A DNA stretch of 64,000 nucleotides from Neisseria bacilliformis (GTDB lineage: Bacteria; Pseudomonadota; Gammaproteobacteria; Burkholderiales; Neisseriaceae): contig NZ_CP059571.1 of NCBI RefSeq assembly GCF_014055025.1, positions 310,001-374,000 of the forward strand. The letters run 5' to 3'. Below, piece after piece: positions 1,154 through 38,784 of the stretch. The notes below the pieces were generated by a model that was not told the DNA's origin, did no database searches, and saw only the letters and a list, made by a program, of their open reading frames with translations. Every line of letters begins with the position of its first letter. Within the stretch, counting starts at the first letter, position 1. The position numbers and the translations under genes were made by a program.

Positions 1154-1171
1154 GCGGGTTTGAAAGGATTG

Positions 1172-1227: not shown

Positions 1228-1236
1228 TGCCGTGAT

Positions 1237-1346
1237 GTAGGGTGTGTGGCGCAGCCACGCACGCGGTTTCAGGGTTTTCGGGGAGGACTCGGATTTGGTG
1301 ATGCGGCAGAGAACGCGTGCGTCGCCTTGGGGCAACACACCCTACC
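1237..1346. repeat. GTAGGGTGTGT / ACACACCCTAC inverted repeat
   Basis: The element opens with GTAGGGTGTGTGGCGCAGCC and closes with a reverse-complement arm ending ACACACCCTAC. Related arms occur near 8290, 13830, 16303, 24979, 40729, 43551 and several times between 53600 and 54135. It looks like a dispersed non-coding repeat family. Confidence 0.6.
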
Positions 1347-1475
1347 TTAATGTCGGAGGCCGTCTGAAAAGGAGGACGGGCGTTGTAAACGGGTATTTCG
1401 GATTGAGGCCGTCTGAAAAACGAATTTTCGCCGTGCCGAAACTGCGTTTTCAGACGGCCTTTTAAAGGAACAACG

Positions 1476-1985: not shown

Positions 1986-1996
1986 CGCAAGGTTCG

Positions 1997-2036
1997 AGGC
2001 CGTCTGAAAACCGGAAATTCGGTTTTCAGACGGCCT
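1997..2036. terminator. Inverted DUS pair between convergent genes
   Basis: Two DUS copies face each other around a short ACCGGAAATTCGGT loop. The pair lies between the convergent thioredoxin and TerC genes and could terminate both. Confidence 0.7.
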
Positions 2037-2049
2037 GATGTGTTTGGCT

Positions 2050-3027
2050 TTATTTGTTTTTTTCTATTTTGCGGCTGTATGCCAGCGAGGTGAGGACGGA
2101 TGCGCCCAGTGCGCCGAAGACGACGGCGAGGGAGACGGCGACGGGGATGTGTATCCAGTGGAGGAGGAGCATTTTGCCGCCGATGAAGCTCAGTACGAAG
2201 GCGAGGCCATAGTTGAGGAAGACGAAGCGGTCGGCCATGTCGGCGAGCAGGAAGTACATGGCGCGCAGGCCGAGGATGGCGAAGATGTTGGAGGTGAGGA
2301 CGATGAAGGGGTCGGTGGTTACGGCGAAGACGGCGGGGATGCTGTCTACGGCGAAGACGACGTCGCTTAATTCGACCATGACGAGGACGAGCAGTAGGGG
2401 GGTGGCGAGGCGGCGGCCGTTTTCGCGGGTGAAGAATTTTTCGCCGTCGAGGGTTTGGCTGACGCGGATGTGTTTTTGCAGCCATTGCAGGATGGGGTTT
2501 TGCGAGAGGTCTGCGTCTTCGTCGCCGCTTTGGCGGATCATTTTGATGCCGGTGTAGAGCAGGAATGCGCCGAAGAGGTAGAGTATCCATTCGAAGCGGG
2601 AGACGAGTACCGCGCCGACGAAGATCATGACGGCGCGCAGGATAATCGCGCCGAAAACGCCGTAGAGCAGGATGCGGTGCTGGTATTGCGGGGGGATTTT
2701 GAAGTAGCCGAAGATGAGCAGGAAGACGAAGAGGTTGTCCACGGCCAGCGATTTTTCGAGGACGTAGCCGGTGAAGTATTCCATGACTTTGGTTTTGGCC
2801 AGCTCGTGGCCGTAGGCGGGGTTGGTGGCGATTTCCCAGTAGAGCCAGCCGGCGAAGGCGCAGGAGGCGGCAATCCAGACGGCGGTCCAGGCGAGGGCTT
2901 CTTTGGTGCTGACTTTGTGGCTGCCGTTTTTTTTGAGAGTCAGCATGTCGATGGCGATCATGAGGAGGACGGCGGTGAGGAAGACGCCGTAGAAGAGGGG
3001 GGAGCCGATGTTGGGTTCTGCGCTCAT
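2050..3027 (-). CDS. TerC/Alx family membrane protein
   Basis: This 325-residue polytopic membrane protein matches the TerC family and is close in length to E. coli Alx. Two acidic membrane motifs typical of the family are present: EKSLAVDNLFVF (Asp97) and VELSDVVFAVDSIPAV (Asp222 and Asp228). Family members have been linked to manganese or other metal export and to tellurite or pH response. The specific substrate here is inferred. The frame extends further upstream, but the ATG at 3027 follows an AGAAAG site and starts the conserved region. No yybP-ykoY riboswitch was recognised in the short upstream gap. Confidence 0.85.
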   Translation of the reverse strand: MSAEPNIGSPLFYGVFLTAVLLMIAIDMLTLKKNGSHKVSTKEALAWTAVWIAASCAFAGWLYWEIATNPAYGHELAKTKVMEYFTGYVLEKSLAVDNLFVFLLIFGYFKIPPQYQHRILLYGVFGAIILRAVMIFVGAVLVSRFEWILYLFGAFLLYTGIKMIRQSGDEDADLSQNPILQWLQKHIRVSQTLDGEKFFTRENGRRLATPLLLVLVMVELSDVVFAVDSIPAVFAVTTDPFIVLTSNIFAILGLRAMYFLLADMADRFVFLNYGLAFVLSFIGGKMLLLHWIHIPVAVSLAVVFGALGASVLTSLAYSRKIEKNK

Positions 3028-3077
3028 GGGGCTTTCTTTCTGTTTGGTGTGTGTTTGTGTTTGGTGTGGTGGCAATC

Positions 3078-3127
3078 AGGCCGTCTGAAAACGTTTTTCG
3101 CGGCGGGAAAACGTTTTCAGACGGCCT
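3078..3127. terminator. Inverted DUS pair
   Basis: Opposed DUS copies surround an AACGTTTTTCGC...AAACGTT stem. It lies just after the 3' end of sspB (minus strand) and before terC, so it can separate the two transcription units. Confidence 0.65.
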
Positions 3128-3145
3128 TTGCCTTGGATGCCGCGT

Positions 3146-3595
3146 TTATTTGACGAATTTGAGGACTTTTTTGCGTGTGCCGTTTTCGGGGGGCGTTTTG
3201 TCGGGTTCGTCTGCGCCGCTGCGGTTTTCAGACGGCCTTTTTTCGGGCTGTTTTTGTTCCGCCGCGCTGTTTTCGCCGGGTTCGTAGGGTTCGACTTCAA
3301 AGCCCATGCCTTCGCCGGTTTCGCGGGCGAAGATGCCGGAGATGTGGCCGACGGGTATCCAGATGTCGTGCGCCACGCCGGAGAAGCGGGCGGAGAAGTT
3401 GACCCATTCGTTGTCGATGGTGAGGTTGCGGGCGGCGGCGGGGCCGATGTTGAGGACGATTTCGTTGTCGCGCACATACTGCATGGGGACGCGGGTGTGG
3501 CTGTTGACCCACGCGGCGATGTGGGCAGTGTGGCCGTTGTCGTTGCACCATTCGTAGAGGGCGCGGAGCAGGTAGGGTTTGGTGCTGCTGTTCAT
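3146..3595 (-). CDS. sspB: Stringent starvation protein B, ClpXP adaptor
   Basis: The 149-residue protein has the SspB fold at residues 1-110, starting with STKPYLLRALYEWCNDN and including HTRVPMQYV and PVGHISGIFARE. A charged, poorly conserved linker follows, then the C-terminal KKVLKFVK, which resembles the ClpX-binding tail of SspB. In the family this protein delivers ssrA-tagged substrates to ClpXP. It starts 9 bases after the sspA stop, so the two form an operon. A DUS at 3227-3236 lies inside the linker codons, so the flexible linker has tolerated an uptake word. Confidence 0.93.
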   Translation of the reverse strand: MNSSTKPYLLRALYEWCNDNGHTAHIAAWVNSHTRVPMQYVRDNEIVLNIGPAAARNLTIDNEWVNFSARFSGVAHDIWIPVGHISGIFARETGEGMGFEVEPYEPGENSAAEQKQPEKRPSENRSGADEPDKTPPENGTRKKVLKFVK

Positions 3596-16331: not shown

Positions 16332-17741
16332 CTACGGTTTGGCCGTTTGCGGCGCGGCGGCCGTGCCTTCCGCACGCGGCGCGGGCGGCGGGAAGATCAG
16401 GCGTTCGGTGAGCTTGTCCAATTCGCCCAAAAGCCTGCCCGCGCGGGGGCTGTTGATGATGACCACCACCGACAGAGCCTGATTGCCGTTGAGGTAATAG
16501 CCCGCGAGGGCGCGCACGTCGGCCAGCGTGCCGGTTTTCAGGCGCAGCGGCGCGCCGATGCTTTTGAAGCGCGATTTGAGCGTGCCGTCGTGTCCGGCCA
16601 CGGGCAGGCTGGCGACGAAGTCGCGGCGCAGCGGGCTTTTATAGGCGGCGGCGAGGATTTCGCCCATCATGCGGGCGGAGAGGCGTTCGCGCCGCGACAG
16701 GCCGGAGCCGTTTTCCAGCACCAGCGGGGCGGTGGAGATGCCCGAGAGCAGGAGCTGGGCGCGGACGGCGGCGGCGGGGTTTTGGCGGCGTTTGTCGGCG
16801 GCGGCGTGGCGGCCGACGGTGAGGAAGACGGTGCGGGCGATGACGTTGTTGGAGTGTTTGTTCATTTCGGCCAGCACTTCGCGCAGCGGCGGCGACTGCA
16901 CGCGGGCGAGGGTGCGGGCGGCGGCGGGGGTGTCGCCCTGCATGAGGCCGTCTGAAAGGATGCCGCCGCCCTGCCGCCAGTAGTTGGCAAAGCTGCGGCG
17001 GGCGAATTCGGGCGCGTCGAACATGTTGACGTACACGTCTTTTCCGGCACAGGCACTCGGCGCGCTGCCTTCCAAAACCAGCACGCCGTTTTCGTATTTG
17101 CCGCGCAGAAAGCGGGCAATTTTGGGGCAGGGCGCGGACGTGGCGGCGAAGGCGGCGCGGTTGAGCAGCGGGATTTCCGGCAGCGGCGGGGTGGTGTGCG
17201 GCACGAGCGCGCCGTTTGCGCCGACCTGCGGGGTGAGGCGGACAACCTTGTAGGCGAGCATCTGCGGGTCGGGCGCGGTGGTGAAGGCGCGTTTGGCATC
17301 GTCGGCGAAGCCTGCGGAGGTGCCCGCGTGCGGCCAGACGCTGCGGTCGAACACCAGATGCCCGCCGATGTGGCGCACGCCGTTGTCGCGCAGCTGCGCC
17401 TGCATTTCCAGCAGCTCGGGCATGTCGAACACGGGGTCGCCGCTGCCTGTCCAATACAAATCGCCGTCGAGCAGGCTGCCACGCAGCGGGGCGGCGGATT
17501 TGAACTCGGTCTGCCAGCGGAAATCCCCGCCGAGGGCGCGCAGGGCGGCGTAGGCGGTTACCAGTTTCATGGTGGAGGCGGGGTTGAGCGGCACGTCGGC
17601 GCGGTGTTCGGCCAGCACTTTGCCGCTGCGCAGGTCTTGCACGAAAAACGCCACTTCGTCCGGCCGTATCTGCCCCAAATCCGCGGCGGCGGCGGGCAGG
17701 GCGAGGAGGAGGCAGAGGAGGGGGAGCAGGCGGCGGGGCAT
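16332..17741 (-). CDS. dacB: D-alanyl-D-alanine carboxypeptidase/endopeptidase, PBP4 (DacB) family
   Basis: The 469-residue exported protein has a signal peptide (residues 1-20, ending ALPAAAA). The three penicillin-binding motifs are present: STMK, SNN (within NKHSNNVIA) and KTG (within LKTGTLADV). This is the S13 class, whose members trim or cross-link-cleave peptidoglycan in the periplasm; the gonococcal homologue is called PBP3. The ATG at 17741 starts the signal peptide. A DUS lies in frame near 16950 in a variable insert. Confidence 0.92.
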   Translation of the reverse strand: MPRRLLPLLCLLLALPAAAADLGQIRPDEVAFFVQDLRSGKVLAEHRADVPLNPASTMKLVTAYAALRALGGDFRWQTEFKSAAPLRGSLLDGDLYWTGSGDPVFDMPELLEMQAQLRDNGVRHIGGHLVFDRSVWPHAGTSAGFADDAKRAFTTAPDPQMLAYKVVRLTPQVGANGALVPHTTPPLPEIPLLNRAAFAATSAPCPKIARFLRGKYENGVLVLEGSAPSACAGKDVYVNMFDAPEFARRSFANYWRQGGGILSDGLMQGDTPAAARTLARVQSPPLREVLAEMNKHSNNVIARTVFLTVGRHAAADKRRQNPAAAVRAQLLLSGISTAPLVLENGSGLSRRERLSARMMGEILAAAYKSPLRRDFVASLPVAGHDGTLKSRFKSIGAPLRLKTGTLADVRALAGYYLNGNQALSVVVIINSPRAGRLLGELDKLTERLIFPPPAPRAEGTAAAPQTAKP

Positions 17742-17786
17742 GGCGGAGGGCGGGTGGCGTTGGCGGAAGGCGGGATTATAAGGGAT

Positions 17787-17859
17787 AGGCCGTCTGAAAG
17801 CGCGGCTTCGGCGCGGCCGCAAGCCGTTTGCCGCCTTGCGCGATATTTTCAGACGGCCT
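17787..17859. terminator. DUS-flanked composite element
   Basis: Opposed DUS copies enclose a GGCTTCGGCGCGGCC core. It lies between the 5-formyl-THF cyclo-ligase 3' end and dacB, and probably terminates the former. Confidence 0.5.
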
Positions 17860-17877
17860 ATTGCCTTGTTTCAGGTT

Positions 17878-18471
17878 TCAGCGGCGGGTGAAGCGCAGCC
17901 TGTGCCGCTCGGAAACGAAACCGTCCAGCGGGATGTCGTGCGCTTCGCGCGGCAGGCTGTCGGCCAGCTGGCAGGCGAAACCGGCAGCTACGGCCAGAGG
18001 CCGTCTGAAACGGCAGGCGGCCAGCGTGGCGTCGTAGTAGCCGCCCGCCTGGCCGAGGCGGTATCCGCTGCGGTCAATGGCGACTATGGGCACAATCATC
18101 ACATCGAGGCGGTCGGCGCGGATTCTGTGTCCGGCAAACTGCGGCACGTTCAGTTTGGCGCGGCCGCGTTTGCGCTCGGCCTGCGCACCGGCGCGGCAGG
18201 GGGTGAACCACATGCGTTTGCTGCCCGGTTCGATGTAGGGCAGGCGGATTCGGGCGCGGCGTTGGGCGGCGGTGCGCAGCAGCATGCTCAGGTCGGCTTC
18301 GCTGCCCATTGCAAAATACAGCGCGATGGTTTTGCCGCGTTTGACGAGGGGTTTGAGGCGGCGGACGATTTCGCGTTCGGCACGCTGGCGTTCGCTGCGG
18401 GAGAGGGCGTTGCGCGCGGCGCGGAAGCGGCGGCGCAGGGCGCGTTTTTGCTGTTTGGCGGGGTCGGTCAT
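17878..18471 (-). CDS. 5-formyltetrahydrofolate cyclo-ligase
   Basis: The 197-residue protein matches the YgfA/MTHFS family: a basic N-terminal helix (KRALRRRFRAARNALS), an IALYFAMGSEADLS segment, and the C-terminal ATP/folate motif RLGQAGGYYDATLA. It converts 5-formyl-THF to 5,10-methenyl-THF using ATP. An in-frame DUS occurs near 18000. The ATG at 18471 gives the family's usual length. In other bacteria this gene follows the 6S RNA gene, but I saw no 6S-like structure in the short upstream gap. Confidence 0.9.
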   Translation of the reverse strand: MTDPAKQQKRALRRRFRAARNALSRSERQRAEREIVRRLKPLVKRGKTIALYFAMGSEADLSMLLRTAAQRRARIRLPYIEPGSKRMWFTPCRAGAQAERKRGRAKLNVPQFAGHRIRADRLDVMIVPIVAIDRSGYRLGQAGGYYDATLAACRFRRPLAVAAGFACQLADSLPREAHDIPLDGFVSERHRLRFTRR

Positions 18472-18503
18472 GGCGGTTTCGGTTATGGGAGGCGGATGTG
18501 TGC

Positions 18504-18557
18504 AGGCCGTCTGAAAACGAAGTTTCGGCGTAGCCAAAAACGGTTTTCAGACGGCCT
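18504..18557. terminator. DUS-flanked composite element after ppa
   Basis: Opposed DUS copies enclose AGTTTCGGCGTAGCCAAAAA. It lies just after the ppa 3' end on the minus strand. Confidence 0.55.
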
Positions 18558-18567
18558 GTATGCTGGT

Positions 18568-19098
18568 TCAGCGTTTGTTCCAGCGTTCCTGCGATTCGCG
18601 GATGACGGCTTTGGCTTCGTCGATGCCGCCCCAGTGTTCCACTTTGGTGGTGCCCGGTTTTTTCAGGTCTTTGTAGTGGTTGAAGTGGAATTCGATTTGC
18701 TTAATAAGCTGCTGCGGCAGGTCGGCCAGCGAGGCGTAGGCGTTGCCGTTGTGGCGGTCGTCGGCGGGGACGCAGACGATTTTGTCGTCCACTTCGCCGT
18801 CGTCCACGAATTTCATCACGCCGATAACGCGCGCTTCAAGAAAGATGCCGGTGGGCAGCGGGGTGTCGGTGATGATGAGCGCGTCCAATTCGTCGCCGTC
18901 TTCGTCCAGCGTCTGCGGGATGAAGCCGTAGTTGGTCGGCTTGGCGAAGGCCAGCGGCTCGACGCGGTCAAGCTGCATCACCGCCAGTTTGCGGTTCCAT
19001 TCGATTTTGTGGTTCGAGCCGGCGGGGATTTCGACAACGACGTTGATGATGCCGCCGTCCACGTCGCCCGCATCGAGGATTTGGTTGAAGTCTGCCAT
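18568..19098 (-). CDS. ppa: Inorganic pyrophosphatase, family I
   Basis: The 176-residue protein contains the family I signature with acidic metal ligands, DEDGDELDALI, plus the NYGFIPQTL and GVMKFVDDGEVDDKI segments. It hydrolyses pyrophosphate with Mg2+ in the cytoplasm. The length matches bacterial hexameric enzymes. The ATG at 19098 is preceded by AAAGGAC on the minus strand. The gene stands alone, divergent from the small membrane protein gene. Confidence 0.96.
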   Translation of the reverse strand: MADFNQILDAGDVDGGIINVVVEIPAGSNHKIEWNRKLAVMQLDRVEPLAFAKPTNYGFIPQTLDEDGDELDALIITDTPLPTGIFLEARVIGVMKFVDDGEVDDKIVCVPADDRHNGNAYASLADLPQQLIKQIEFHFNHYKDLKKPGTTKVEHWGGIDEAKAVIRESQERWNKR

Positions 19099-28964: not shown

Positions 28965-28996
28965 AGGCCGTCTGAAAAACTGTTTTCAGACGGCCT
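28965..28996. terminator. Inverted DUS pair after parA
   Basis: Opposed DUS copies with a short AAACTG spacer and a TTTTC tail. It marks the last resident-dialect hairpin before the region with foreign uptake words. Confidence 0.65.
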
Positions 28997-29124
28997 TTTC
29001 TTGCGGATAAGGTTGGCCGGTTTGCCGGTTTGTGGCAAGCCACGCACGCAGACAACAAAGGTTTAAGCGGCAGGCAAAACCGCAGACCGCAACGGAAAAC
29101 GGTTTTCAGACAACGTTTTTGTTT

Positions 29125-29580
29125 TCAGGCTGCCGCTTCTCCCCGCACCGCCCCCACATCCGCCATCGCCACTTCCTCTCCCGTTCCCTTGTCCTGCAAA
29201 ACCAGCCTGACCGCGTTGCCCGTTGCTTTGTTCACAAAGCGCAGCGGTACATTTTGCCAGCCCGAGAGATTCCATTTGGTGCCGATTTTCGCCATCGCTA
29301 GCATCACCCACGCTATGTCTCTGCCACGCTCGGTGAGGCGGTATTCGTAGCGGTCGGGGCGGGTTTGGTAGAGATGTTTTTCAATTAATCCGTTGTTTTC
29401 CAGCGTTTTTAAGCGGTCGGTCAGCGTGGCGTTGGTGATGTTGCTGGCTTCGCGCAGTTCGCTGAAACGGCTCGCGCCCAGCAATATATCGCGCAGAATT
29501 AAGCCCGCCCATTTGTCGCCGATTACGCCCAATACATCCGCCACGGGGCAGACGATGTTGTCGAAGTCGTTGGATTTCAT
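29125..29580 (-). CDS. HxlR-family transcriptional regulator
   Basis: The 151-residue protein has a winged-helix HxlR domain at residues 8-105: CPVADVLGVIGDKWAGLILRDIL, RFSELREASNITNATLTDRLKTLE and the wing RPDRYEYRLTERG. A C-terminal extension follows. HxlR regulators often sense reactive aldehydes or redox stress and control a divergent gene. Here the divergent gene is an SDR dehydrogenase, and palindromes lie between them. The stop codon is inside a GCAGCCTGAA-type uptake word at 29124-29133. Confidence 0.88.
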   Translation of the reverse strand: MKSNDFDNIVCPVADVLGVIGDKWAGLILRDILLGASRFSELREASNITNATLTDRLKTLENNGLIEKHLYQTRPDRYEYRLTERGRDIAWVMLAMAKIGTKWNLSGWQNVPLRFVNKATGNAVRLVLQDKGTGEEVAMADVGAVRGEAAA

Positions 29581-29637
29581 CTTATTTTTCCTTGTTTATC
29601 AAATCGTTCAGCTATTTTAGCAGATTTTTTTGCAAAA

Positions 29638-29652
29638 CTCTAATGATTAGAG
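29638..29652. promoter_or_regulatory. Palindromic operator candidate CTCTAATGATTAGAG
   Basis: This is a perfect 7-base inverted repeat around a central G. It sits directly upstream of the -35 of the SDR promoter and about 57 bases before the HxlR start. A related site is at 29691-29705. Confidence 0.6.
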
Positions 29653-29653
29653 C

Positions 29654-29683
29654 TTGACTTAATCCAATTATCAGACTTACAAT
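29654..29683 (+). promoter_or_regulatory. Promoter of the SDR-tautomerase operon
   Basis: TTGACT (29654-29659) and TACAAT (29678-29683) are separated by 18 bases. The promoter is bracketed by two related palindromes. Confidence 0.6.
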
Positions 29684-29690
29684 GCAATCA

Positions 29691-29705
29691 CTCTGATTAT
29701 TAGAT
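29691..29705. promoter_or_regulatory. Second operator candidate CTCTGATTATTAGAT
   Basis: An imperfect version of the palindrome at 29638-29652, placed around the expected transcription start. Two sites flanking one promoter suit repression by a dimeric regulator. Confidence 0.5.
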
Positions 29706-29744
29706 AAACAATTTTATCGACGAACCCACAGAAGGAAAATCCAA

Positions 29745-30527
29745 ATGAACAAACAAACAGCATTGATTACAGGCGCATCTTCAGGCATCGGCGCGGTGTA
29801 TGCCGACCGTTTGGCGGCACGCGGCTACAACCTGATTTTGGTGGCGCGTCGTGCCGAACGTCTGCAAAAACTGGCGGACGAACTGGCGCAAAAATACGGC
29901 GCAAACGTGCAGGTCTGCGCCGCCGATTTGGCGCAGGAAAACGGGCAGGCCGCCGTTGCCGAAATCATTGAAAACACGTCAGATTTAACCCTGCTGGTAA
30001 ACTGCGCGGGTTTGGGCGCATTGGGCTTTGCCGCCAACGTCGCATGGGCGGACGTGGACGGGCTGATTAAAGTCAACGTGCAGGCACTCACTCGCCTCTC
30101 GCTCACCGCCGCCAAGCGTTTTATCGCCGAAAAACGCGGCAACATCGTCAATATCGGCTCGATTATCGCCCAAATGCCCGTCGCAGGCGCAAGCGCATAC
30201 AGCGCATCTAAAGCCTATGTGCTCAATTTCACCCGCGCGCTGCACGCCGAGCTTGCCGAAGTGGGCGCAGGTGCACAGGCCGTGATGCCCAGCCCGGTGA
30301 AATCCGAATTTTTTGGCGACAAAGCCGCGCCCTTCCCCGAAGCCTTGTTTATGACTGCTGAAACCTTGGTCGATACCGCCCTCGCCGCACTCGATCAACA
30401 AGAATGGGTGTGCTACCCGAATCTGCAAGACATCGCCGATTGGCAGCAGCTCGAAGCCGCACGCGGCAAGTTCGTACAGGGCGTAACCCAGACCGGCAAA
30501 CCCGCCGACCGTTATCAAACCAAATAA
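29745..30527 (+). CDS. Short-chain dehydrogenase/reductase
   Basis: The 260-residue protein is a classical SDR: cofactor motif TGASSGIG (residues 9-16), NCAG in place of NNAG, catalytic Ser in NIGSIIAQMP, and YSASK. It probably reduces an aldehyde, ketone or quinone with NAD(P)H; the substrate is unknown. It is divergent from the HxlR regulator and is followed 17 bases later by a tautomerase-like gene. The ATG follows AGAAGGAAAA. Confidence 0.9.
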   Translation: MNKQTALITGASSGIGAVYADRLAARGYNLILVARRAERLQKLADELAQKYGANVQVCAADLAQENGQAAVAEIIENTSDLTLLVNCAGLGALGFAANVAWADVDGLIKVNVQALTRLSLTAAKRFIAEKRGNIVNIGSIIAQMPVAGASAYSASKAYVLNFTRALHAELAEVGAGAQAVMPSPVKSEFFGDKAAPFPEALFMTAETLVDTALAALDQQEWVCYPNLQDIADWQQLEAARGKFVQGVTQTGKPADRYQTK

Positions 30528-30544
30528 ATCAAGGAGTAAACATT

Positions 30545-30964
30545 ATGCCAATGTGGAAAATTTATCACCCAAAAAACGCATTCAGCGAGCAGGACAAACG
30601 CGAAATTGCCGAAAAAATCACCGCACTTTACGCTACCTTTCTGCCGAAATTCTATGTAAACGTGTTCTTCCGCCCCACCGACGCGCAAAACTGCTACATC
30701 GGCGGCGAACCGACGGGCGACTTCGTGCGTATCACCATCAACCACATCACCAAATCCATGTCGCCCGAAGAGCGCAAACCGTTTTTAATGGCGTTCAACC
30801 GCATCCTTAATCCGTATGTCGCCGACAAAGGCTACCGCTGGGAACTGCACGTCGGCGAAACCCCGATTGAACTGTGGACAGTGCAAGGGCTGATTCCGCC
30901 CGCGCTCGACAGCGACACAGGACGCAAGTGGAAGGAAGAGAACGAAGCGTCAGCTTATGAATAA
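30545..30964 (+). CDS. Tautomerase_3-like protein (cis-CaaD type fold)
   Basis: The 139-residue protein begins MPMWKIYHPKNAFSEQDKREIAEKIT; Pro2 would be the catalytic base after Met removal. It includes YVNVFFRPT and CYIGGE segments and a C-terminal ELHVGETPIELW, matching the longer tautomerase class. Function here is unknown; with the SDR it may form a small detoxification or catabolic module. The ATG at 30545 follows AAGGAGTAAACATT, so translation should be efficient. Confidence 0.8.
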   Translation: MPMWKIYHPKNAFSEQDKREIAEKITALYATFLPKFYVNVFFRPTDAQNCYIGGEPTGDFVRITINHITKSMSPEERKPFLMAFNRILNPYVADKGYRWELHVGETPIELWTVQGLIPPALDSDTGRKWKEENEASAYE

Positions 30965-30980
30965 GTAATGTTCTGATGGC

Positions 30981-31022
30981 AAAAGGCAGCCTGAAAACCA
31001 AACGGTTTTCAGGCTGCCTTTG
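30981..31022. terminator. Inverted pair of foreign-dialect uptake words
   Basis: AAAGGCAGCCTGAAAACC and GGTTTTCAGGCTGCCTTT form a near-perfect hairpin after the tautomerase gene. The core is GCAGCCTGAA, not the resident GCCGTCTGAA. It takes the terminator role that resident DUS pairs have elsewhere. Confidence 0.8.
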
Positions 31023-31051
31023 CAAAACCCCGCACGCTGCCAAACAGCATC

Positions 31052-31146
31052 ATTCCCGCGCAGGCGTGAGTCCGGTTGGAATGTCGGCAACAGTTTGTTT
31101 CTTCAAGCACGATTAAGTCCCGGCCAAGATTACGCCTGCGCGGGAA
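31052..31146. repeat. NIME-like element with 16-bp inverted ends
   Basis: ATTCCCGCGCAGGCGT at the left is the exact reverse complement of the right end, with about 63 bases between. ATTCCC...GGGAAT ends are typical of the dRS3/NIME repeats of Neisseria. It is inside the foreign-dialect block. Confidence 0.65.
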
Positions 31147-31370
31147 TGGCGGCATGTCCGGCCGTTCGGGCTGCGGGCGGGGTTGTGCAAAGGTTTCAGG
31201 CTGCCTTTGCCGTCCGACCCAAGCGGTGTACGCATTCCCCGCCACAAAACAAATCCGTGTGTTTCCCCAAAACCAAACCGTGTGCGCGGCTTGCGCCACA
31301 TTCCCCGCCTGAGTGGCAGAGGCCGTCTGAAAAATGTGATTCGGGTTTTCAGACAGCCTTTTCCGGCACC
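31147..31370. other. Spacer with mixed uptake words
   Basis: No gene is seen. It holds one GCAGCCTGAA-type word (31195-31204), degraded GTAGGGTGTGT-like arms, and a DUS pair at about 31319-31361 in which the left copy is resident and the right copy (TTCAGACAGCC) has one mismatch. Confidence 0.55.
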
Positions 31371-32381
31371 TCAGCCCAGCCCCAGCTCCGCAATCTGCCC
31401 CGGGCCGGGGCGGTGGTGGCAGAGGGATTCGACAAGCGGCAGGATTTGGTTGCGGTAGTCGGCAAGCGGACGCTCGGAGAGGGCGGCGTCGAGGGCGTAG
31501 AGGCCGGGCAGGCGGTTGATGCCGGGCGGGCTGTCGATCCAGCCGTAGGGCAGGCGGGGGAGTAGAAACACGCGGCGGTTCTGCACGGCTTTCACGCCGC
31601 GCCACAGCGGGTCGGCCTGCACGCGGCGGTAGAAGCGTTCGTCCTGGGTGAGGATGGTTTCAGGCTGCCATTGCAGAATCTGCTCGAACGGCACTTTGGC
31701 CAGGCCGCCGCTGCCTTCGAGCGAGTCGCCCACGCTGCGTGCGCCGAGCATGGCGATGGTTTCGGTGTGGATGGAGCGGTTGCGGCCGGTTTCCAGCCCG
31801 TCTTCGCCGCGAGCCAGATAAACGGCGGGCGGCGCGGCGCGGCGGCTTTTGGCGCGCTCTGCGGCAAAGTCGAGGGCGGTTTGGGCGAGGGCGGCGAGGC
31901 GTTCGGTGTGCGGCGAGGCGAGGATGCCGCCGAGCAGGCGGATTTGCGCGGGGGCTTGGGCGAGGCGGCCGTCCAGCAGCAGGTAGGGGATGCCGAGCCG
32001 TTTGGCGGTTTCTTCGGCGGTGGAGAGCAGTTTTGCGTTCACCCGTCCGGCATCGACGATCAAATCGACTTTGCGCTGTAACAGCTGTTCGGCGGACACG
32101 GGCCGGCCGCGCCCGTTGATGCCGCCGAGCACGGGCAGCCTGCGCGAGGGTTCGTCGAACAGGGCGAGTGCCTGCGGGGACTTTTGCGCGGTCCAGCCGG
32201 CCATGCGCTCGGGGGCGAGGGCGTGCAGCAGCACTTCGGCGGGCGGGCCGGCGGCATAGATGCGGCGGAACGGCGGCGGGTCGGCGGGGGTTTCGTTTTC
32301 AGGCTGCCTGCCGCAGCCGGACAGCAGCAGGCCGCAGGCGGCGAGGCCGTGCAGGAAGCGGCGGCGGGTGATGGGGTTCAC
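31371..32381 (-). CDS. ABC-type substrate-binding lipoprotein (metal-chelate/cobalamin class)
   Basis: The 336-residue protein starts with a basic TRRRFLHGLAACG segment and a lipobox LLLSGC, so it is an exported lipoprotein. The rest resembles class III binding proteins (FecB/BtuF type): VDLIVDAGR, IPYLLLDGR, VPFEQILQWQPETIL and RVFLLPRLPYGW. The GTG at 32381 follows GGGAGG at 8 bases and overlaps the end of the preceding reading frame by four bases. It likely binds a metal chelate delivered by the TonB receptor upstream. No permease or ATPase gene is present nearby. Confidence 0.8.
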   Translation of the reverse strand: MNPITRRRFLHGLAACGLLLSGCGRQPENETPADPPPFRRIYAAGPPAEVLLHALAPERMAGWTAQKSPQALALFDEPSRRLPVLGGINGRGRPVSAEQLLQRKVDLIVDAGRVNAKLLSTAEETAKRLGIPYLLLDGRLAQAPAQIRLLGGILASPHTERLAALAQTALDFAAERAKSRRAAPPAVYLARGEDGLETGRNRSIHTETIAMLGARSVGDSLEGSGGLAKVPFEQILQWQPETILTQDERFYRRVQADPLWRGVKAVQNRRVFLLPRLPYGWIDSPPGINRLPGLYALDAALSERPLADYRNQILPLVESLCHHRPGPGQIAELGLG

Positions 32382-32497
32382 GGCTGCGCCCTCCCTGCGG
32401 CGGCGCGCACCCAAGCGGACGCGGCTTCGGGCTCGGGCGGCAACTCGTCGTCCGCGCCGCCGCAGAACTGCCGCCAGTCGTCCAGATATTTGCGTCA
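32378..32497 (-). pseudogene. C-terminal tail of the DUF2478 gene beyond an in-frame TGA
   Basis: After the TGA at 32495-32497 the same frame continues for 38 codons, beginning RKYLDDWRQFCGG and ending at a TGA that overlaps the next gene's GTG start. The tail fits the expected family C-terminus. The intact gene would be 173 residues and translationally coupled to the binding-protein gene. One base change explains the stop. Confidence 0.65.
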
Positions 32498-32899
32498 CAC
32501 GGCGGTGAGCACGGGGATGCCGGCGGAAACGGCGGCGAGGTATTCGGCGTTCAGTCCCCGGTTTTCGATTTCGGCATGGCCGAATTTGTTGAAAAACAGG
32601 ATGTCCGCGCCTTCGTCGGCGGCACGGCGCAGCACGGATGCCGCTTCGGCGAGCAGGCGGCCGTCGAGTTTGCAGCCCTGCGAGCCGCTGCCGAGCTGTT
32701 GGAAGATTTCAAAAGACTGCCCGTCAGCCACGGAGACAAGCTGCGATTTGATGTGTCGGCCTTGTGCGTCGAGCGGATTGAGCAGCCCGGCGGCGCGGAT
32801 GCCTGCGGCCTGCGCGGCATGGGCGGCCTGCCACAGCGCGGCGGCAGCATCGTCGCCTTCGCCGTCGTACACCAGCGCGGCAATGGCAAAATCGGTCAT
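32495..32899 (-). CDS. DUF2478-like protein, truncated by in-frame TGA
   Basis: The 134-residue frame starts MTDFAIAALVYDGEGDDAAA and contains ILFFNKFGHAEIENRGL and a final AGIPVLTAV, which resemble DUF2478 proteins found near molybdate or metal transport genes. The function is not established. The gene stops at TGA 32495, but the codons beyond continue the family sequence in the same frame. It lies between a TonB receptor and a binding protein, all on the minus strand, so it belongs to the same uptake locus. Confidence 0.65.
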   Translation of the reverse strand: MTDFAIAALVYDGEGDDAAAALWQAAHAAQAAGIRAAGLLNPLDAQGRHIKSQLVSVADGQSFEIFQQLGSGSQGCKLDGRLLAEAASVLRRAADEGADILFFNKFGHAEIENRGLNAEYLAAVSAGIPVLTAV

Positions 32900-32950
32900 G
32901 CGTGTTTTCTTTCGGAGGTTTGGGAGGGGGATTGTACGCGGTCTGCTTTG

Positions 32951-32982
32951 AGGCCGTCTGAAAAGCGGTTTTCAGACGGCCT
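32951..32982. terminator. Inverted resident DUS pair next to a foreign word
   Basis: A standard DUS pair lies in the gap after the TonB receptor 3' end. Nine bases further on, a GCAGCCTGAA-type word (32991-33000) touches the receptor stop codon, so both dialects occur within 50 bases. Confidence 0.65.
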
Positions 32983-33001
32983 CTCGGTTTTTCAGGCTGC
33001 C

Positions 33002-35029
33002 TTAAAAGGTGTAGCGCAGGTTGGTGTACCAGCTGCGGCCGGGCATGGGGTAGCCGTCGGTGAGTTCGTATTTTTTGTCGGTGATGTTGTCGAGGCCGAT
33101 TTCCCAGCTGAGGCCGTCGCGGATGTTCCAAACGGCTTTGGCATCGTACACGGCGTAGCCGCCGAGTTTGCGGGTGCTGCTGCCGTAGGCGGAGCGGCGG
33201 CCGCTTTCGAGGCGGGCGTTGGCGGCAAGGGTGAGGTGGCGGCTGGGGCGGTATTCGGCGAAGGCGTCGGCTTTGTGGACGGGGGTGCCGGTGAGGACGG
33301 TGCCGCCGTCGAGGTCTTTGCGGTTGAGGTAGCCGTAGCCGAGGCCGAGTGTCCATTGGCTGCCGATGTTTTGGCGCAGGCTGATTTCCGCGCCGGTGTG
33401 GCGGGTGCGGCCGATGTTTTGCGCCTGGTTGCAGTAGCCGCGTGTGCCGGAGCGGCGGCAGGCGTTGCGGGTGGGTTCGGGGACGAGGGCGTTTTGGATT
33501 TCGTTGCTCAGGCGGCTGTAAAACACGGCGGCTTCTGCCTGCGCGCCCTGCCAGGGCTGCCCTTTCCAGCCGAGTTCGATGTGGCGGGCGCGCTCGGATT
33601 TCAAATCGGGGTTGGGGAGGGCGCGTCCCATGCGGAAGGAGTAGCGGTCTTTGATGCTGGGGAAGCGGGATTTGCTGGATACGGTGGCGTAGACCATTTG
33701 GTTTTCTGCGGGGCGGTAGCTGAGTTCAATGAGGCCGTTCAGGGAGTGGGTTTTGCCTTTTTGGTAGCCGGCGGGCAGTTCTTTGGCGGCGAGGTGCTCG
33801 TAGTCGGCACTGCTGCGCAGCCGCCATTGGGGGGTGAAGTCGATTTGGTGTTCGACGGCAAACTGGTGGGCGGCATCGCGGAAGCGGGTTTCTTTTTCCT
33901 GGTCGTGGTGGCGGTTGGTTTTGTATTGGTAGCCGAACTGTAAGAGTTGGTTTTGGAAGGCGGAGGTGGAGAAGTTGACGCTCGCGCCGAGGGTGCGGTC
34001 TTTGTAGGGGCTGAGGGCGGCGTCGGGGGTGGTGTAGCTGCTGTCGGTGTAGGACTGCATGCCGTTTTTGTAGCTGTCGTGGTAGAGGCGCACTTTGAGG
34101 CGGTTGGCCTGCCCCAGTGCGGTGTTGCCGATGAAGTAGAAGCTGTCTTTGTCCCAGTAGGGCCAGCGCCAGTAGCGGGCTTGGCTGTTGGGGGCGTCTC
34201 CTGTGTACACGGGCTGTTGTTTTTCGCTGCGGATGCCGCTGTATCCGAGGGCGTATTCGTCGGTTTCGTTGGGGGTGAGGCCGAATTTCAGGGAGTAGTG
34301 GCGGTCGGTGCGGCCGGCGTTTTCGCGGTAGCGACCGGTGTCGGTGGGGCGGGCTTTGAGGTCGCTGAAATCTTTGGGCAGCCTGAAACGGTTCTGGTGC
34401 AGGTAGGCGAAGCCGCCCTGTACGTAGAAGCGTTCGGTGGCAGAGCCGAGGTTGAGTGAGACGTTACGGCCGCTGCTGTCATCCAGGCCGACCTGTGCGC
34501 TGCCTTCAAAGGCTTTCTGCGGTTTGCGGGTAACGAGGTTGATCGCGCCGCCCATGGTGTTGAAGCCGTACATCAGCGATGCGCCGGCTTTGGCGGTGCG
34601 GATTTCGGCGAGGCCGGGGGTGGGGAAGCGGGCGAAGTCGACGTAGCCGTCGTAGGGGACGTATTGCGGGATGCCGTCGAGAAACAGGGGCACTTGGCGG
34701 GCGTCGAAGCCGCGCACGCGGATGCCGGTTTCGTTGCGGCCGCCGGAAAAGTCGATGCTGACGCCCGGCTGGGTGGCGAGTGCCTGGGCGATGTCCCGGC
34801 TGTTGCTGCGGCGGATGTCTGCGGCGCGGACGACGCTTTCGTCCGCCGCCGTGTCGCGCCGCCCGCGCACGGTGATTTCGCCCAGCGTAAAGACGGACTC
34901 GGCGGCGGCTTTGGGGCTGTTCTGGCTGTCGACAGGGGTATCGGCGGGATTGTCGGCAAATGCCTGCGGGGCAAAGGCGGCGGCCAAGAGGGCGAGCAGG
35001 ACGGGATTGGGGCGGGGGGTCGGGTTCAT
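33002..35029 (-). CDS. TonB-dependent outer-membrane receptor
   Basis: The 675-residue protein has a signal peptide (residues 1-25, ending QAFA), a plug domain (about 50-165; GEITVRGRR, QALATQPGVSID, GIRVRGFDARQVPLFLDG) and a 22-strand barrel ending in NLRYTF with the terminal Phe expected for BAM. Substrate is probably a metal chelate or siderophore; it cannot be named. A GCAGCCTGAA word lies inside the gene at 34378-34387. No Fur box was recognised upstream. Confidence 0.9.
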   Translation of the reverse strand: MNPTPRPNPVLLALLAAAFAPQAFADNPADTPVDSQNSPKAAAESVFTLGEITVRGRRDTAADESVVRAADIRRSNSRDIAQALATQPGVSIDFSGGRNETGIRVRGFDARQVPLFLDGIPQYVPYDGYVDFARFPTPGLAEIRTAKAGASLMYGFNTMGGAINLVTRKPQKAFEGSAQVGLDDSSGRNVSLNLGSATERFYVQGGFAYLHQNRFRLPKDFSDLKARPTDTGRYRENAGRTDRHYSLKFGLTPNETDEYALGYSGIRSEKQQPVYTGDAPNSQARYWRWPYWDKDSFYFIGNTALGQANRLKVRLYHDSYKNGMQSYTDSSYTTPDAALSPYKDRTLGASVNFSTSAFQNQLLQFGYQYKTNRHHDQEKETRFRDAAHQFAVEHQIDFTPQWRLRSSADYEHLAAKELPAGYQKGKTHSLNGLIELSYRPAENQMVYATVSSKSRFPSIKDRYSFRMGRALPNPDLKSERARHIELGWKGQPWQGAQAEAAVFYSRLSNEIQNALVPEPTRNACRRSGTRGYCNQAQNIGRTRHTGAEISLRQNIGSQWTLGLGYGYLNRKDLDGGTVLTGTPVHKADAFAEYRPSRHLTLAANARLESGRRSAYGSSTRKLGGYAVYDAKAVWNIRDGLSWEIGLDNITDKKYELTDGYPMPGRSWYTNLRYTF

Positions 35030-35355
35030 GGTGGTTTGTAAGGTTTAGTTAAGATTTGGTGAATGTAACGCGGTATGCGCTTGGCTGTTATCAGCCGATG
35101 GGATTAGGCCGTCTGAAAACTGGGGATGCGTTTTAACGCCGGTGAAGTTTCGTTTTCAGACGGCCTTTCGGTTTTCAGACGGCCTCGACTGTGCCGTTTT
35201 GCATGGCGGATAAGGATGGCGGCAGGCAGGCGGCGGCTGCCGGACGGCAAAGAGGCCGTCTGAAAAACGTCTGCGGCGTGGGGCAACGGCGAAACGGGTT
35301 TTTCAGACGGCCTGTTATATAATCCGCGCTTTCGTTTTTCCGCCGGATTTCTGCC
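35030..35355. other. Spacer between the TonB receptor and dnaE
   Basis: It contains two DUS pairs (35106-35166 and about 35253-35308) and one extra DUS near 35174. A TATAAT-like TATATAAT near 35315 may be part of the dnaE promoter. All uptake words here are of the resident type. Confidence 0.5.
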
Positions 35356-38300
35356 ATGACTGCCCCCGTTTACATTCCCCTGCGCCTGCATACCGAGTTT
35401 TCGATTACCGACGGCATGGTGCGTATCAAAGAAGTGGTGAAAAAGGCGCAGGAGTATGGTTTCCCCGCGCTGGGCATCAGCGATTTGATGAACGAGTTTG
35501 CGCTGGTGAAGTTTTACAAAGCCTGCCGTGGGGCGGGGATCAAGCCGGTTGGGGCGGCGGATGTGTGGATCGGCAATCCGGCCGCGCCCGACAAGCCATT
35601 TCGGGCGATGCTGATTATCCGCAATGAGGCGGGTTATCTGCGTTTGAGCGAGCTTTTAACGGCGGCTTATGTGGGCGAGGGGCGCAATCTGCACCATGCC
35701 GAGTTAAACCCCGAATGGCTGGATTCGGGCGACAACAGTGGGCTGATCTGTCTTTCTGGCGCGCATTTGGGCGAAATGGGCGTGAATCTGTTGAACGGCA
35801 ACGAAGACGCGGCGCGTGCGGCGGCGTTGAAGTATGCGGCGTGGTTCCCCAATGCGTTCTATCTGGAGCTGCAACGCCTGCCCGAACGCCCCGAATGGGA
35901 GGCTTGCGTTTCGGGCAGCGTGAAGCTGGCGGAGGAATTGGGTTTGCCGGTGGTGGCGACGCATCCGACGCAGTTTATGAGCCGCGATGATTTCAACGCA
36001 CACGAGGCGCGGGTGTGCATCGCGGGCGGCTGGGTGCTGACGGACAAGAAACGTCCGCGCGATTTTACGCCGAGCCAGTTTTTCATCCCGCCGGAAACGA
36101 TGCTGGAACGTTTCGCCGACTTGCCCGAAGCCTTGGAAAACACGGTGGAAATTGCCAAACGCTGCAATATCCATATCACGCTGGGCAAAAACTTCCTGCC
36201 CCTGTTCCCGACGCCCGACGGTCTGTCGCTCGACGATTATCTGGTGAAACTCTCCAACGAGGGCTTGCAGGAACGCATGGTTCAGCTTTATCCCGATGAG
36301 GCGGAACGGGCGGCGAAAATGCCGGAATATCAGGAGCGGCTGGATTTTGAGTTGAACATCATCATCCAGATGAAATTCCCCGGCTATTTCCTTATCGTAC
36401 AAGACTTTATCAACTGGGCGAAAACGCACGGCTGTCCGGTCGGGCCGGGACGCGGTTCGGGCGCGGGTTCGCTGGTGGCGTATTCGCTGAAGATTACCGA
36501 CCTCGATCCGCTGAAATACGCGCTGCTGTTCGAGCGTTTCTTGAACCCCGAACGCGTTTCCATGCCTGACTTCGACGTGGACTTCTGTCAGGCAAACCGC
36601 GGGCGCGTGATTGAATATGTGCGCGAAAAATACGGCGCGGAAGCGGTGAGCCAGATTGTTACTTTCGGCACGATGTCGTCCAAAGCCGTGATCCGCGATG
36701 TGGGGCGCGTGCTGGAGCTGCCGTTTACCCTGTGCGACAAACTGTCTAAGCTGATTCCGCTGGAAGCCAACAAACCTTTGGGTTTGGACGATGCAATGAA
36801 GGCGGAGCCGCAGATTCAGGAATTGATTGAAGCGGAAGAAGCGGACGAACTGATTACGCTGGCGAAAAAGCTGGAAGATTTGACGCGCGGTCTGGGCATG
36901 CACGCAGGCGGCGTGTTGATTGCGCCGGGTAAGATTTCCGATTACAGCCCCGTGTATCAGGCAGACGAATCCGCTTCGCCCGTATCGATGTACGACAAGG
37001 GCGACGTGGAAGACGTGGGCTTGGTGAAGTTCGACTTTTTGGGCCTGCGCAACCTCACCATCATCGAAATGGCGCAGGACAACATCAAAGCCACCACCGG
37101 CGATATTGTCGATGTGGGCACAATCCCGCTCGACGACCAAGCCGCCTACAAAATCTTCCGCGATGCGAACACCACCGCCGTATTCCAGTTCGAATCGACC
37201 GGCATGAAAAAAATGCTGAAAACGGCGCACACCACCAAGTTTGAAGAACTTATCGCCTTCGTATCGCTCTACCGTCCCGGCCCGATGGACAACATCCCCG
37301 ACTTCGTCGCGCGTATGAAGGGTCAGGAATTCCAATACATCCACCCGCTGCTCGAAGACATCCTCGCGCCGACCTACGGCATTATGGTGTATCAGGAACA
37401 AGTGATGCAGGCGGCGCAGATTATCGGCGGCTACTCGCTCGGCGGCGCGGACTTGCTGCGTCGTGCCATGGGTAAGAAAAAGCCCGAAGAAATGGTGAAA
37501 CACCGCGAAATCTTCGCCGAAGGCGCGGCAAAACAAGGCATTTCGCGCGAAAAATCCGACGAAATCTTCAACTACATGGAAAAATTCGCCGGCTACGGTT
37601 TCAACAAATCCCACGCCGCCGCCTACGCCCTGATTTCCTACCAGACCGCATGGCTCAAGGCGCACTACCCCGCCGAATTTATGGCGGCAACCATGTCGTC
37701 TGAATTGGACAACACCGACCAGCTCAAACACTTTTACGACGACTGCCGCGCCAACGGCATCACCTTTCTGCCGCCCGACATCAACGAATCGTCCTACCGC
37801 TTTGTGCCCGACGGCAACAAACAGATCCGCTACGCCCTCGGCGCAATCAAAGGCACGGGTGAAGCGGCGGTGGAATCCATCATCGCCGCCCGAGAAGCCG
37901 GCGGAAAATTCACAGGGTTGTTGGATTTTTGCGAGCGCGTCGGCAAAGACCACATGAACCGCCGCACCCTCGAAGCCCTGATACGCGGCGGCGCGTTCGA
38001 CAGCATCGAGCCCAACCGCGCCATGTTGATGGCCAACATCGATTTAGCGATGGAAAATGCCGACCAAAAAGCCGCCAACGCCAATCAGGGCGGGCTTTTC
38101 GACATGATGGATGACGCGATCGAGCCGGTGAAACTCTCCGCCGCCCCCGCGTGGAGCGAATCGGAGAAACTCGCCGAAGAAAAAACCGTGATCGGCTTTT
38201 ACCTCTCCGGCCACCCTTTCGCGCCCTACGAACAGGAAATCCGCCGCTTCGCCCCCGTGTCATTAGGCCGTCTGAAAACGCAGGACAGCGTGCGCGTGGC

Positions 38301-38784
38301 CGGCTTCGCCACCGGCGTGCGCACCATGAACGGCAAAAGCGGCCGCTTCGCCATCGTCCAGCTCGAAGACCGCAGCGGCTTTGCCGAAGTGAGCGTTTCG
38401 GGCGAACTGCTCGAAGAAGCGCGCGAGCGGCTCAAAGCCGACCAAATCCTCATCGCCGAATGCCGCGTCAGCCACAGCGACTACAACGGCGGCGAGCTGC
38501 GCATCCGCGCCAACAGCATCATGACCCTGCCGCAGGCGCGCGAAAAATTCGCCCGCAGCCTCACCCTCACCGCCACCCCCGAGGCCGACATCCCCGCCCT
38601 CGCCGCCCTGCTCGAATCCGCCCGCAAAACCGGCGGCGGCATCCCCCTGCGCCTGCGCTACCGCAACGGCGGCGCGTCGGGCGAAATCGACCTGCAAAAC
38701 CAATGGCAGATCGAAGCCCGCGCCGAACTTTTCGAGCAGCTGCAAAGCCTGCTCGGCGAATACGGCGTCAGCGTCGGCTGGTAA
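35356..38784 (+). CDS. dnaE: DNA polymerase III alpha subunit
   Basis: The 1142-residue protein has the N-terminal PHP domain (LHTEFSITDGM), the polymerase core with GPGRGSGAGSLVAY and the catalytic PDFDVDFCQ, the FEELIAFVSLYRPGPMD segment, an HhH region (GKDHMNRRTLEALIRGGAFD) and an OB fold near residue 970. It replicates the chromosome. A DUS occurs in frame at LGRLKT (about 38265), in the linker before the OB fold. The ATG at 35356 is the start; the family is normally about 1160 residues. Confidence 0.97.
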   Translation: MTAPVYIPLRLHTEFSITDGMVRIKEVVKKAQEYGFPALGISDLMNEFALVKFYKACRGAGIKPVGAADVWIGNPAAPDKPFRAMLIIRNEAGYLRLSELLTAAYVGEGRNLHHAELNPEWLDSGDNSGLICLSGAHLGEMGVNLLNGNEDAARAAALKYAAWFPNAFYLELQRLPERPEWEACVSGSVKLAEELGLPVVATHPTQFMSRDDFNAHEARVCIAGGWVLTDKKRPRDFTPSQFFIPPETMLERFADLPEALENTVEIAKRCNIHITLGKNFLPLFPTPDGLSLDDYLVKLSNEGLQERMVQLYPDEAERAAKMPEYQERLDFELNIIIQMKFPGYFLIVQDFINWAKTHGCPVGPGRGSGAGSLVAYSLKITDLDPLKYALLFERFLNPERVSMPDFDVDFCQANRGRVIEYVREKYGAEAVSQIVTFGTMSSKAVIRDVGRVLELPFTLCDKLSKLIPLEANKPLGLDDAMKAEPQIQELIEAEEADELITLAKKLEDLTRGLGMHAGGVLIAPGKISDYSPVYQADESASPVSMYDKGDVEDVGLVKFDFLGLRNLTIIEMAQDNIKATTGDIVDVGTIPLDDQAAYKIFRDANTTAVFQFESTGMKKMLKTAHTTKFEELIAFVSLYRPGPMDNIPDFVARMKGQEFQYIHPLLEDILAPTYGIMVYQEQVMQAAQIIGGYSLGGADLLRRAMGKKKPEEMVKHREIFAEGAAKQGISREKSDEIFNYMEKFAGYGFNKSHAAAYALISYQTAWLKAHYPAEFMAATMSSELDNTDQLKHFYDDCRANGITFLPPDINESSYRFVPDGNKQIRYALGAIKGTGEAAVESIIAAREAGGKFTGLLDFCERVGKDHMNRRTLEALIRGGAFDSIEPNRAMLMANIDLAMENADQKAANANQGGLFDMMDDAIEPVKLSAAPAWSESEKLAEEKTVIGFYLSGHPFAPYEQEIRRFAPVSLGRLKTQDSVRVAGFATGVRTMNGKSGRFAIVQLEDRSGFAEVSVSGELLEEARERLKADQILIAECRVSHSDYNGGELRIRANSIMTLPQAREKFARSLTLTATPEADIPALAALLESARKTGGGIPLRLRYRNGGASGEIDLQNQWQIEARAELFEQLQSLLGEYGVSVGW

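Follow-up and report, generated by a model that had tools for sequence, protein, structure and literature searches.

The DNA uptake sequence (DUS) dialects described by Frye et al. in 2013 (PMC3630211) and the mapping of heterodialect DUS to find genomic islands, already published by Hughes-Games et al. in 2020 (PMC7371117), are the closest precedents for the locus described here, a block of king-dialect uptake words at 28996-35107 of a 64,000-base stretch of the Neisseria bacilliformis chromosome (hereafter the window; positions 310001-374000 of contig C1 of genome G000, one 2.49-Mb contig). As in the described dialects, the host words are AG-DUS and the foreign ones AG-kingDUS. In the passages of the mapping study that deal with islands, foreign words are over-represented and resident words under-represented, which is read as horizontal acquisition, and the block likewise has its resident DUS under-represented and one foreign dialect over-represented. 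In contrast to the islands of those passages, the king-word tracts of G000 are short (0.8-26 kb) and many, include core genes and carry mixed-dialect arrays, while the block has no integrase or conjugation family and the window no sim words.

Two other cases, in the relevant passages of Frye et al. (PMC3630211), come close. A 7-kb folP segment of N. subflava ATCC 19243 carries seven mucDUS and one AG-DUS; like our block it is a short foreign-dialect stretch, the other strain of that species being AG-dialect, but its mucDUS positions were found in N. sicca, whereas no matching donor was found for the block. Simonsiella muelleri is reported to carry both the king and the sim dialect at almost equal counts. 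In contrast, the dialects of G000 are uneven, lie in tracts and come from both sides of a measured transformation barrier, transformation of N. meningitidis with AG-kingDUS being 0.0002 of that with AT-DUS. N. bacilliformis itself was reported there with 4265 AG-word 10-mers, and Kingella potus, a close relative, is AG-DUS dominant (PMC11316581). For the king words of G000 we lean, at a little above even confidence, towards repeated entry of king-dialect DNA into an AG-dialect Neisseria chromosome, followed by partial re-wording of the tracts.

Throughout, the king word is GCAGCCTGAA (a 10-mer; 12-mer AGGCAGCCTGAA) and the resident AG word is GCCGTCTGAA (10-mer; 12-mer AGGCCGTCTGAA). Eight copies of GCAGCCTGAA lie in the window, at 29124(-), 30986(+), 31008(-), 31195(-), 31659(-), 32298(-), 32991(-) and 34378(+), all where a first-pass annotation of the sequence had placed them, with no further copy outside the block in the 64,000 bases. 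A chance origin is ruled out, as 100 shuffles gave a mean of 0.21 copies per window and at most 2, and the reversed king 12-mer does not occur in the genome. Five of the eight words have the AG prefix of the full AGGCAGCCTGAA form. The resident GCCGTCTGAA, with 120 copies in the window, is thinned to three in the block (31322, 32953 and 32971), where 12.35 were expected from the rest of the window (Poisson P 0.0017). As annotated, both dialects adjoin at 32951-33000 (resident pair 32953/32971 and king word 32991), and the pair near 31319-31361 consists of one exact resident word (31322) and one with a mismatch (31348, GCTGTCTGAA). The window holds no copy of the single-step intermediate GCAGTCTGAA and one of GCCGCCTGAA; there is thus no sign in it of resident words drifting into king words, and that origin is unsupported. 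The annotation had also assigned the word to Kingella and Eikenella. This stands for Kingella oralis, together with Alysiella and Simonsiella, in all of which AGGCAGCCTGAA, the AG-KingDUS, is enriched along with AG-SimDUS (PMC10715097); it fails for Eikenella, whose word is another because, in the dialect comparison of Frye et al. (PMC3630211), only the Eikenella dialect has A at +4.

The view of the block as a sole foreign-dialect patch did not survive a count of the whole chromosome, which holds 272 copies of AGGCAGCCTGAA and 3951 of AGGCCGTCTGAA. Our comparison set comprised 83 family genomes including G000, with 45 others of the same genus and 37 of other genera. Among the 45 genus-mates, king 12-mers reach at most 54 (G015), stay below 20 in 40 genomes and have a median of 6 and a total of 446. 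Higher counts occur in nine genomes of genera g7, g8, g9 and g12 (1109-3449 king 12-mers), G001 of genus g2 (898), G081 (289) and G054 (217); two incomplete g8 genomes hold only 34 and 67. We defined a tract as at least three king 12-mers with gaps below 5 kb and counted tracts in the first 1.7 Mb, where place lists are complete. There, 192 king 12-mers form 53 groups, and 25 tracts hold 157 of the 192, so that the chromosome has at least 25 tracts, the largest with 23 king 12-mers over 26 kb. In 20-kb bins the variance-to-mean ratio of king 12-mers is 3.6, while 2000 simulations gave a maximum of 1.75. Because the king words are clustered, the equal density across the genome that would have refuted the annotation's reading does not hold.

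Nineteen long open reading frames (ORFs) of the tracts were scanned with Pfam, of which 15 matched at E<=1e-8 and four gave no match. Reading gene names from the families, the tracts include the core genes mnmG, nuoG, glyS, mfd, a RadA-like ATPase and valS, as well as accessory genes (a type I specificity subunit, a type III-like restriction subunit, a DNA methylase, AcrB-type and OEP efflux, and a phage tail protein). AG words also lie inside some of these genes (glyS has 2 king and 6 AG words). The 1360-1380-kb tract (L150) is a nitrate-reductase and molybdenum-cofactor locus by ORF naming, without a Pfam scan. Another king tract contains an ORF with a DUF4145 match (L140:9754-10509) and a guanine-plus-cytosine (GC) content of 34%, in a genome sample of 59% GC.

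The mixed arrays were analysed in 464 kb of the 2.49 Mb, made up of the window and twenty 20-kb stretches (18 selected for king words, 2 king-poor controls) and holding 722 AG words and 249 king words. Tandem king-AG pairs (same direction, 12-24 nucleotides (nt)) number 43, against a mean of 5.6 (maximum 15) by circular shift and 3.5 (maximum 12) under local jitter; the resident words noticed beside foreign words in the block therefore reflect a genome-wide pattern. Within 24 nt, king-AG pairs are divergent in 20 cases and hairpins in one, each against a circular-shift mean of 2.9 (maximum 10), and most AG-AG pairs at such distances take the hairpin form (50 cases, beside 7 tandem and 5 divergent ones). 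A tandem AG word lies within 24 nt of 41 of the 249 king words and of only 14 of the 722 AG words. Around king words, AG density is 3.38/kb at less than 60 nt, 0.80/kb at 60-500 nt and 1.68/kb beyond 500 nt. The whole genome of G000 contains 69 mixed tandems (30 + 39), compared with a maximum of 5 in any of the 82 others and a total of 6 in the 37 genomes of other genera. Thus, the tandem habit is not limited to G000, but is far commoner there. No description of mixed AG/king arrays was found among the matches listed from the open-licence literature.

Some arrays involve further words. At 1365598, a king word is followed by GCTACCTGAA, which we take to be the eik word, then by the intermediate GCAGTCTGAA and then by an AG word. 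Comparing DNA near king words (10-200 nt away; 65 kb) with DNA far from them (>2 kb; 222 kb), GCAGTCTGAA occurs 6 vs 0 times, GCTACCTGAA 7 vs 1 times and GTCGTCTGAA, presumably the muc word, 17 vs 11 times; the intermediate GCCGCCTGAA is not enriched (3 near, 8 far). Sim words number 27 in the 464 kb, 15 of them simply overlapping a king word and 12 not.

The block and its flanks in the window contain the following features.

28967-28994, no strand: resident-word hairpin of the parA-side flank (word search)
28996-35107, no strand: king-dialect block, from the last resident word before it to the first after it; 8 king words, 3 resident words vs 12.35 expected
29124-29133, minus strand: king word overlapping the last codons and stop of the HxlR gene
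29125-29580, minus strand: HxlR-type transcription regulator (PF01638, E 4.9e-24; 66% DNA match over 418 bp in same-genus G037)
29745-30527, plus strand: short-chain dehydrogenase/reductase (SDR; PF00106, E 9.5e-44)
30545-30964, plus strand: Tautomerase_3, oxalocrotonate-tautomerase-like (PF14832, E 1.7e-47, scanned in the longer frame 30404-30964)
30986-31017, no strand: king-word inverted pair, by its sequence a terminator-like hairpin, after the tautomerase gene
31195-31204, minus strand: lone intergenic king word (word search)
31218-31364, no strand: dispersed intergenic repeat of G000 with resident word 31322 and imperfect partner 31348 (copies 81% and 77%)
31371-32498, minus strand: periplasmic binding protein (PBP; PF01497), with in-frame king words 31659 and 32298; relative in G039 (locus L061), 62%
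32495-32899, minus strand: DUF2478 protein (PF10649, E 6.8e-35); relative in G039 (locus L061), 63%
32953-33000, no strand: mixed array, resident inverted pair 32953+ and 32971- then king word 32991-, next to the stop codon of the TonB gene (word search)
33002-35029, minus strand: TonB-dependent receptor (PF00593, PF07715), with king word 34378 in frame
35108-35311, no strand: five resident words of the dnaE-side flank (word search)

The genes form two groups, HxlR-SDR-tautomerase (29125-30964), with a GC content of 52-58% and a GC content at third codon positions (GC3) of 0.66-0.70, and TonB receptor-DUF2478-PBP on the minus strand (31371-35029), with 64-71% GC and a GC3 of 0.76-0.83 (0.83 for both TonB and PBP). 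Resident word 31322 stands alone because it sits in G000's own dispersed repeat, which has an AG hairpin of its own, between both groups; the other copies of this repeat, G000:244370-244511 (81%) and 1066649-1066796 (77%), are both in stretches without king words. The idea that resident words were added later to the block is borne out only in part: the genome-wide array pattern speaks for it, but word 31322 lies in the repeat. King word 34378 encodes F-R-L-P in the receptor frame and holds the gene's sole AGG codon. Judging from the families, we read the TonB receptor-DUF2478-PBP operon as a putative TonB-dependent uptake system for a metal complex or cofactor, and no permease was found by Pfam among the six proteins of the block. 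Inverted ATTCCCGCGCAGGCG-like arms at about 31050-31150 of the window, inside the king-marked part, resemble what we take to be the Neisseria dRS3 repeat.

SDR and the TonB receptor are rare cargo in the family sample. For SDR, the 82 other genomes gave nothing at E<=1e-30, and the receptor exceeds 50% identity in two of them, G039 (67%) and G078 of genus g10 (52%), with partial matches (38%) in three genomes of genus g4. Outside the family, the 18 best receptor loci reach 44-50%, including Comamonas, Delftia, Alcaligenes and Rhodanobacter. G039, another Neisseria, whose locus coordinates are identical to those of record JAUMUU010000075.1 (Neisseria sp. S12M_Sa_23), is nearest for the whole operon, with all three genes in identical order and 62-67% amino-acid identity. 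It lacks king words at the three in-frame king positions of the block (31659, 32298 and 34378), and between its TonB and DUF2478 genes, the site of the 32953-33000 array, it has a single AAGCAGCCTGCA, the AA-King3DUS (PMC10715097); this one word would fit an earlier stay of the operon in Kingella-type hosts. No donor combining the same dialect with high identity was found among the 82 other genomes, the longest DNA matches being 67-68% in G039 (8 king 12-mers) and those of higher identity being pieces below 150 bp only. We rejected an origin of SDR through plasmids: 2819 plasmid records matched, all below 60% identity (the best 47% among the matches listed), and most of the 15 listed came from soil or root bacteria.

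Around the outside TonB loci L064 and L070, eight neighbouring ORFs were scanned, of which four gave no match of TonB/ABC-uptake type and three no match at all; the binding protein and ABC ATPase found in L070 suggest TonB/ABC uptake. On the flanks, the parA-dnaE interval gave nothing to compare: none of 20 relatives from the 83 genomes had parA in the ~10 kb that precede dnaE. The dnaE gene itself (window 35356-38784) is 86-89% identical to 16 genus members and 82% to G020. Since G020 and G039 are nearest by ComP, replacement of dnaE is possible.

Repeated entry would require as donor one or more king-dialect Neisseriaceae, probably of a lineage outside the sampled set and near G000 in base composition. 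Such DNA would have come in many times, with natural transformation as the simplest route despite the poor word match, or in another way, and would then have recombined, so that the imports are both core-gene replacements and new cargo (here HxlR-SDR-tautomerase and TonB receptor-DUF2478-PBP). In the recipient population, segments gaining an AG word would be taken up better, and AG words would accumulate, mostly between genes and preferentially within ~24 bases of existing king words. Intergenic spots already holding king words may tolerate AG words best, producing the tandem arrays, while king words inside coding frames would stay and slowly erode.

Several measures bear on which word is older. 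The position of king words relative to ORFs, their lower purity and their looser prefix favour import with later re-wording, as do their clustering, the thinned resident words, the mixed tandems and the rare cargo. With the greedy and rough ORF calling used in all our ORF-based word counts and near/far composition, 133 of 249 king words lie inside ORFs vs 161 of 399 AG words more than 2 kb from a king word (P 0.0012; the tendency held under each of four ORF settings). For every exact copy there are 0.11-0.17 one-off variants of king words and 0.04 of distant AG words. The AG prefix is present on 57% of king words (n=249) vs 90% of AG words, and on 78% of 40 king words in king-rich genomes (six loci, three genomes). 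The nitrate-reductase tract was aligned with 14 relatives picked from DNA matches, and the comparison speaks for few sites because only 6 of the 27 king words of L150 could be placed. Three of these six (1817, 7731 and 17206) face no uptake word in relatives, and at 19907 G029 has an indel-broken word. In the same tract, the narH segment L150:18600-19450 shares 95% identity with G029 and 93% with G003, which belongs to another genus, while the neighbouring 16510-18600 is 81-85% identical to G029; AG word 19191 of this segment is exact in G029 alone of nine relatives aligned. By these identities, L150:18600-19450 appears to be a mosaic gene region.

A number of observations weigh against repeated entry. 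N. bacilliformis is represented by one genome, and no donor was identified among the 83 genomes, whose king-dialect members gave no match to SDR (E<=1e-30) or the TonB receptor (E<=1e-20). For the nitrate-reductase tract, eight genomes of g7 and g8 gave no DNA match at E<=1e-30, and the best king-rich genome among the matches listed, G001 (78%), is below the AG-dialect G029 (84%). A foreign composition of genes near king words was not found (GC3 0.693 near vs 0.686 far, P 0.60; GC 0.593 vs 0.609, P 0.008). Sequenced pieces (0.8-12 kb, two of them below 1 kb) of five king-rich genomes (G001, G057, G064, G066 and G082) have 39-50% GC, while GC around king words in G000 is 59%; because the tract genes look native, any donor must resemble G000 in composition. 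AG words near king words do not exceed the king words in purity, having 0.13 one-off variants for each exact copy, and the 45 genus-mates have 38 mixed tandems in total, at most 5 per genome, among 446 king 12-mers. Nor are the mixed arrays supported as recombination junctions: of 40 single-transition arrays, 9 are concordant, 16 reversed, 9 AG on both sides and 6 king on both sides. Finally, king word 19472 of L150 (1379472) corresponds to an AG word in both G029 and G050 and to GCTACCTGAA in G003, king word 18761 is GCAGCCGGAA in G029 (one base off) and exact in G002, and an array of abutting words (AG- king- AG+ king+) at 1379895-1379947 (L150:19895-19947) stands on an AG hairpin also present in G029.

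Because some king words of this one tract stand on a resident hairpin common to G029, they may have been gained in place. Indeed, the hairpin and the replaced arm at 1379472 would fit a dual-dialect uptake in which ComP accepts both words and king words, through mutation and biased uptake, arise next to resident ones, an explanation that we hold as doubtful, though the strongest competitor. The ComP gene of G000 (1009642-1010082, outside the tracts counted in the first 1.7 Mb) was found with a ComP probe sequence and placed in a tree of 34 ComP sequences from the 82 genomes with a match. It groups with G020 and G039 (support 0.95), outside the clade of five king-rich genomes; this group, joined by G041 and G024, forms the sister (support 0.83) of a clade that unites king-type and other non-Neisseria ComP, and G000 ComP has residues, such as TTWA and INQD, also present in some king-type ComP. 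This sister position, the residues in common, the native composition of the tracts and the six GCAGTCTGAA near king words vs none far from them all favour dual acceptance. However, it accounts poorly for the strong clustering of king words and the thinned resident words, for a looser AG prefix and more one-off variants than a maintained word should have, for the lack of GCCGCCTGAA enrichment, for the mere 29 king 12-mers of G020 with its related ComP, and for the family-rare cargo of the window block. Native composition, in core genes such as mnmG, nuoG, glyS, mfd, the RadA-like ATPase and valS, would also suit a lineage that recently switched from king to AG, its tracts being residues not yet replaced or re-worded, and so would the narH segment, which holds a resident word and is closer to the AG-dialect G029 than its neighbouring parts are. 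Such a succession seems improbable to us given 272 king vs 3951 AG 12-mers and the cargo uncommon in the family sample; moreover, because G020, with related ComP, is AG-dialect, the switch must then have happened recently and separately.

The first-pass annotation had proposed import of the block genes from another genus, Kingella or Eikenella in particular. The wider claim keeps the clustered king words, the thinned resident words and the rare cargo on its side, and lacks a match to SDR or the TonB receptor in any sampled king-dialect genome. The narrower one, in which a known Kingella or Eikenella was the recent source, can draw on the word itself, that of K. oralis, Alysiella and Simonsiella in the relevant part of PMC10715097, and on the 52% receptor in G078 of genus g10, but we judge it very unlikely: the king-dialect genomes among the 83 gave no match at the thresholds above, the pieces of five king-rich genomes at 39-50% GC do not fit, the operon is nearest to Neisseria G039, and the Eikenella word differs (PMC3630211). 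Least probable of all, we find, is that the block is an integrative element moving as a unit. Both flanks (28962 and 35250) have an identical 19-nt stretch (two overlapping 18-mers) around a resident word, and ICENmu is reported to insert at DUS sites (PMC7371117); however, the shared stretch may be no more than the resident-word consensus, the block contains a resident repeat, its halves differ in GC3 (0.66-0.70 vs 0.76-0.83), and Pfam found no integrase, relaxase or secretion/conjugation family among the six proteins.

A second word deserves mention beside the king dialect. In stretches L254-L257 of G062 and G060, the two incomplete g8 genomes (67 and 34 king 12-mers, respectively), AGTCTGCCGGAA is over-represented, with 23 copies in 30.6 kb and 18 in 24.0 kb where ~0.001 would be expected, and close pairs of the 10-mer TCTGCCGGAA within it are hairpin-oriented in 8 of 8 cases. 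King, king3 and sim words do not occur in these stretches. Aligned to simDUS, AGTCTGCCGGAA has two differences, one of them inside the CTG core, which is held to be required in DUS. It is a candidate for an undescribed uptake dialect; among the literature matches listed for TCTGCCGGAA, none concerned uptake.

It is tempting to speculate, and we regard it as rather unlikely, that the tandem king/AG arrays are bilingual uptake sites, in a species that uses two dialects at once, with genes crossing the dialect barrier both ways and the arrays recording the repeated crossing. Between species of Neisseriaceae, uptake dialects are regarded as barriers, and dozens of other-dialect tracts with many mixed arrays in one genome would mean that this barrier leaks frequently. 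The tracts would then give a relative record of the crossings, as king words erode and resident words accrue. Moreover, the mixed arrays would offer natural bilingual sites for studying DNA choice by ComP and the change of dialects.

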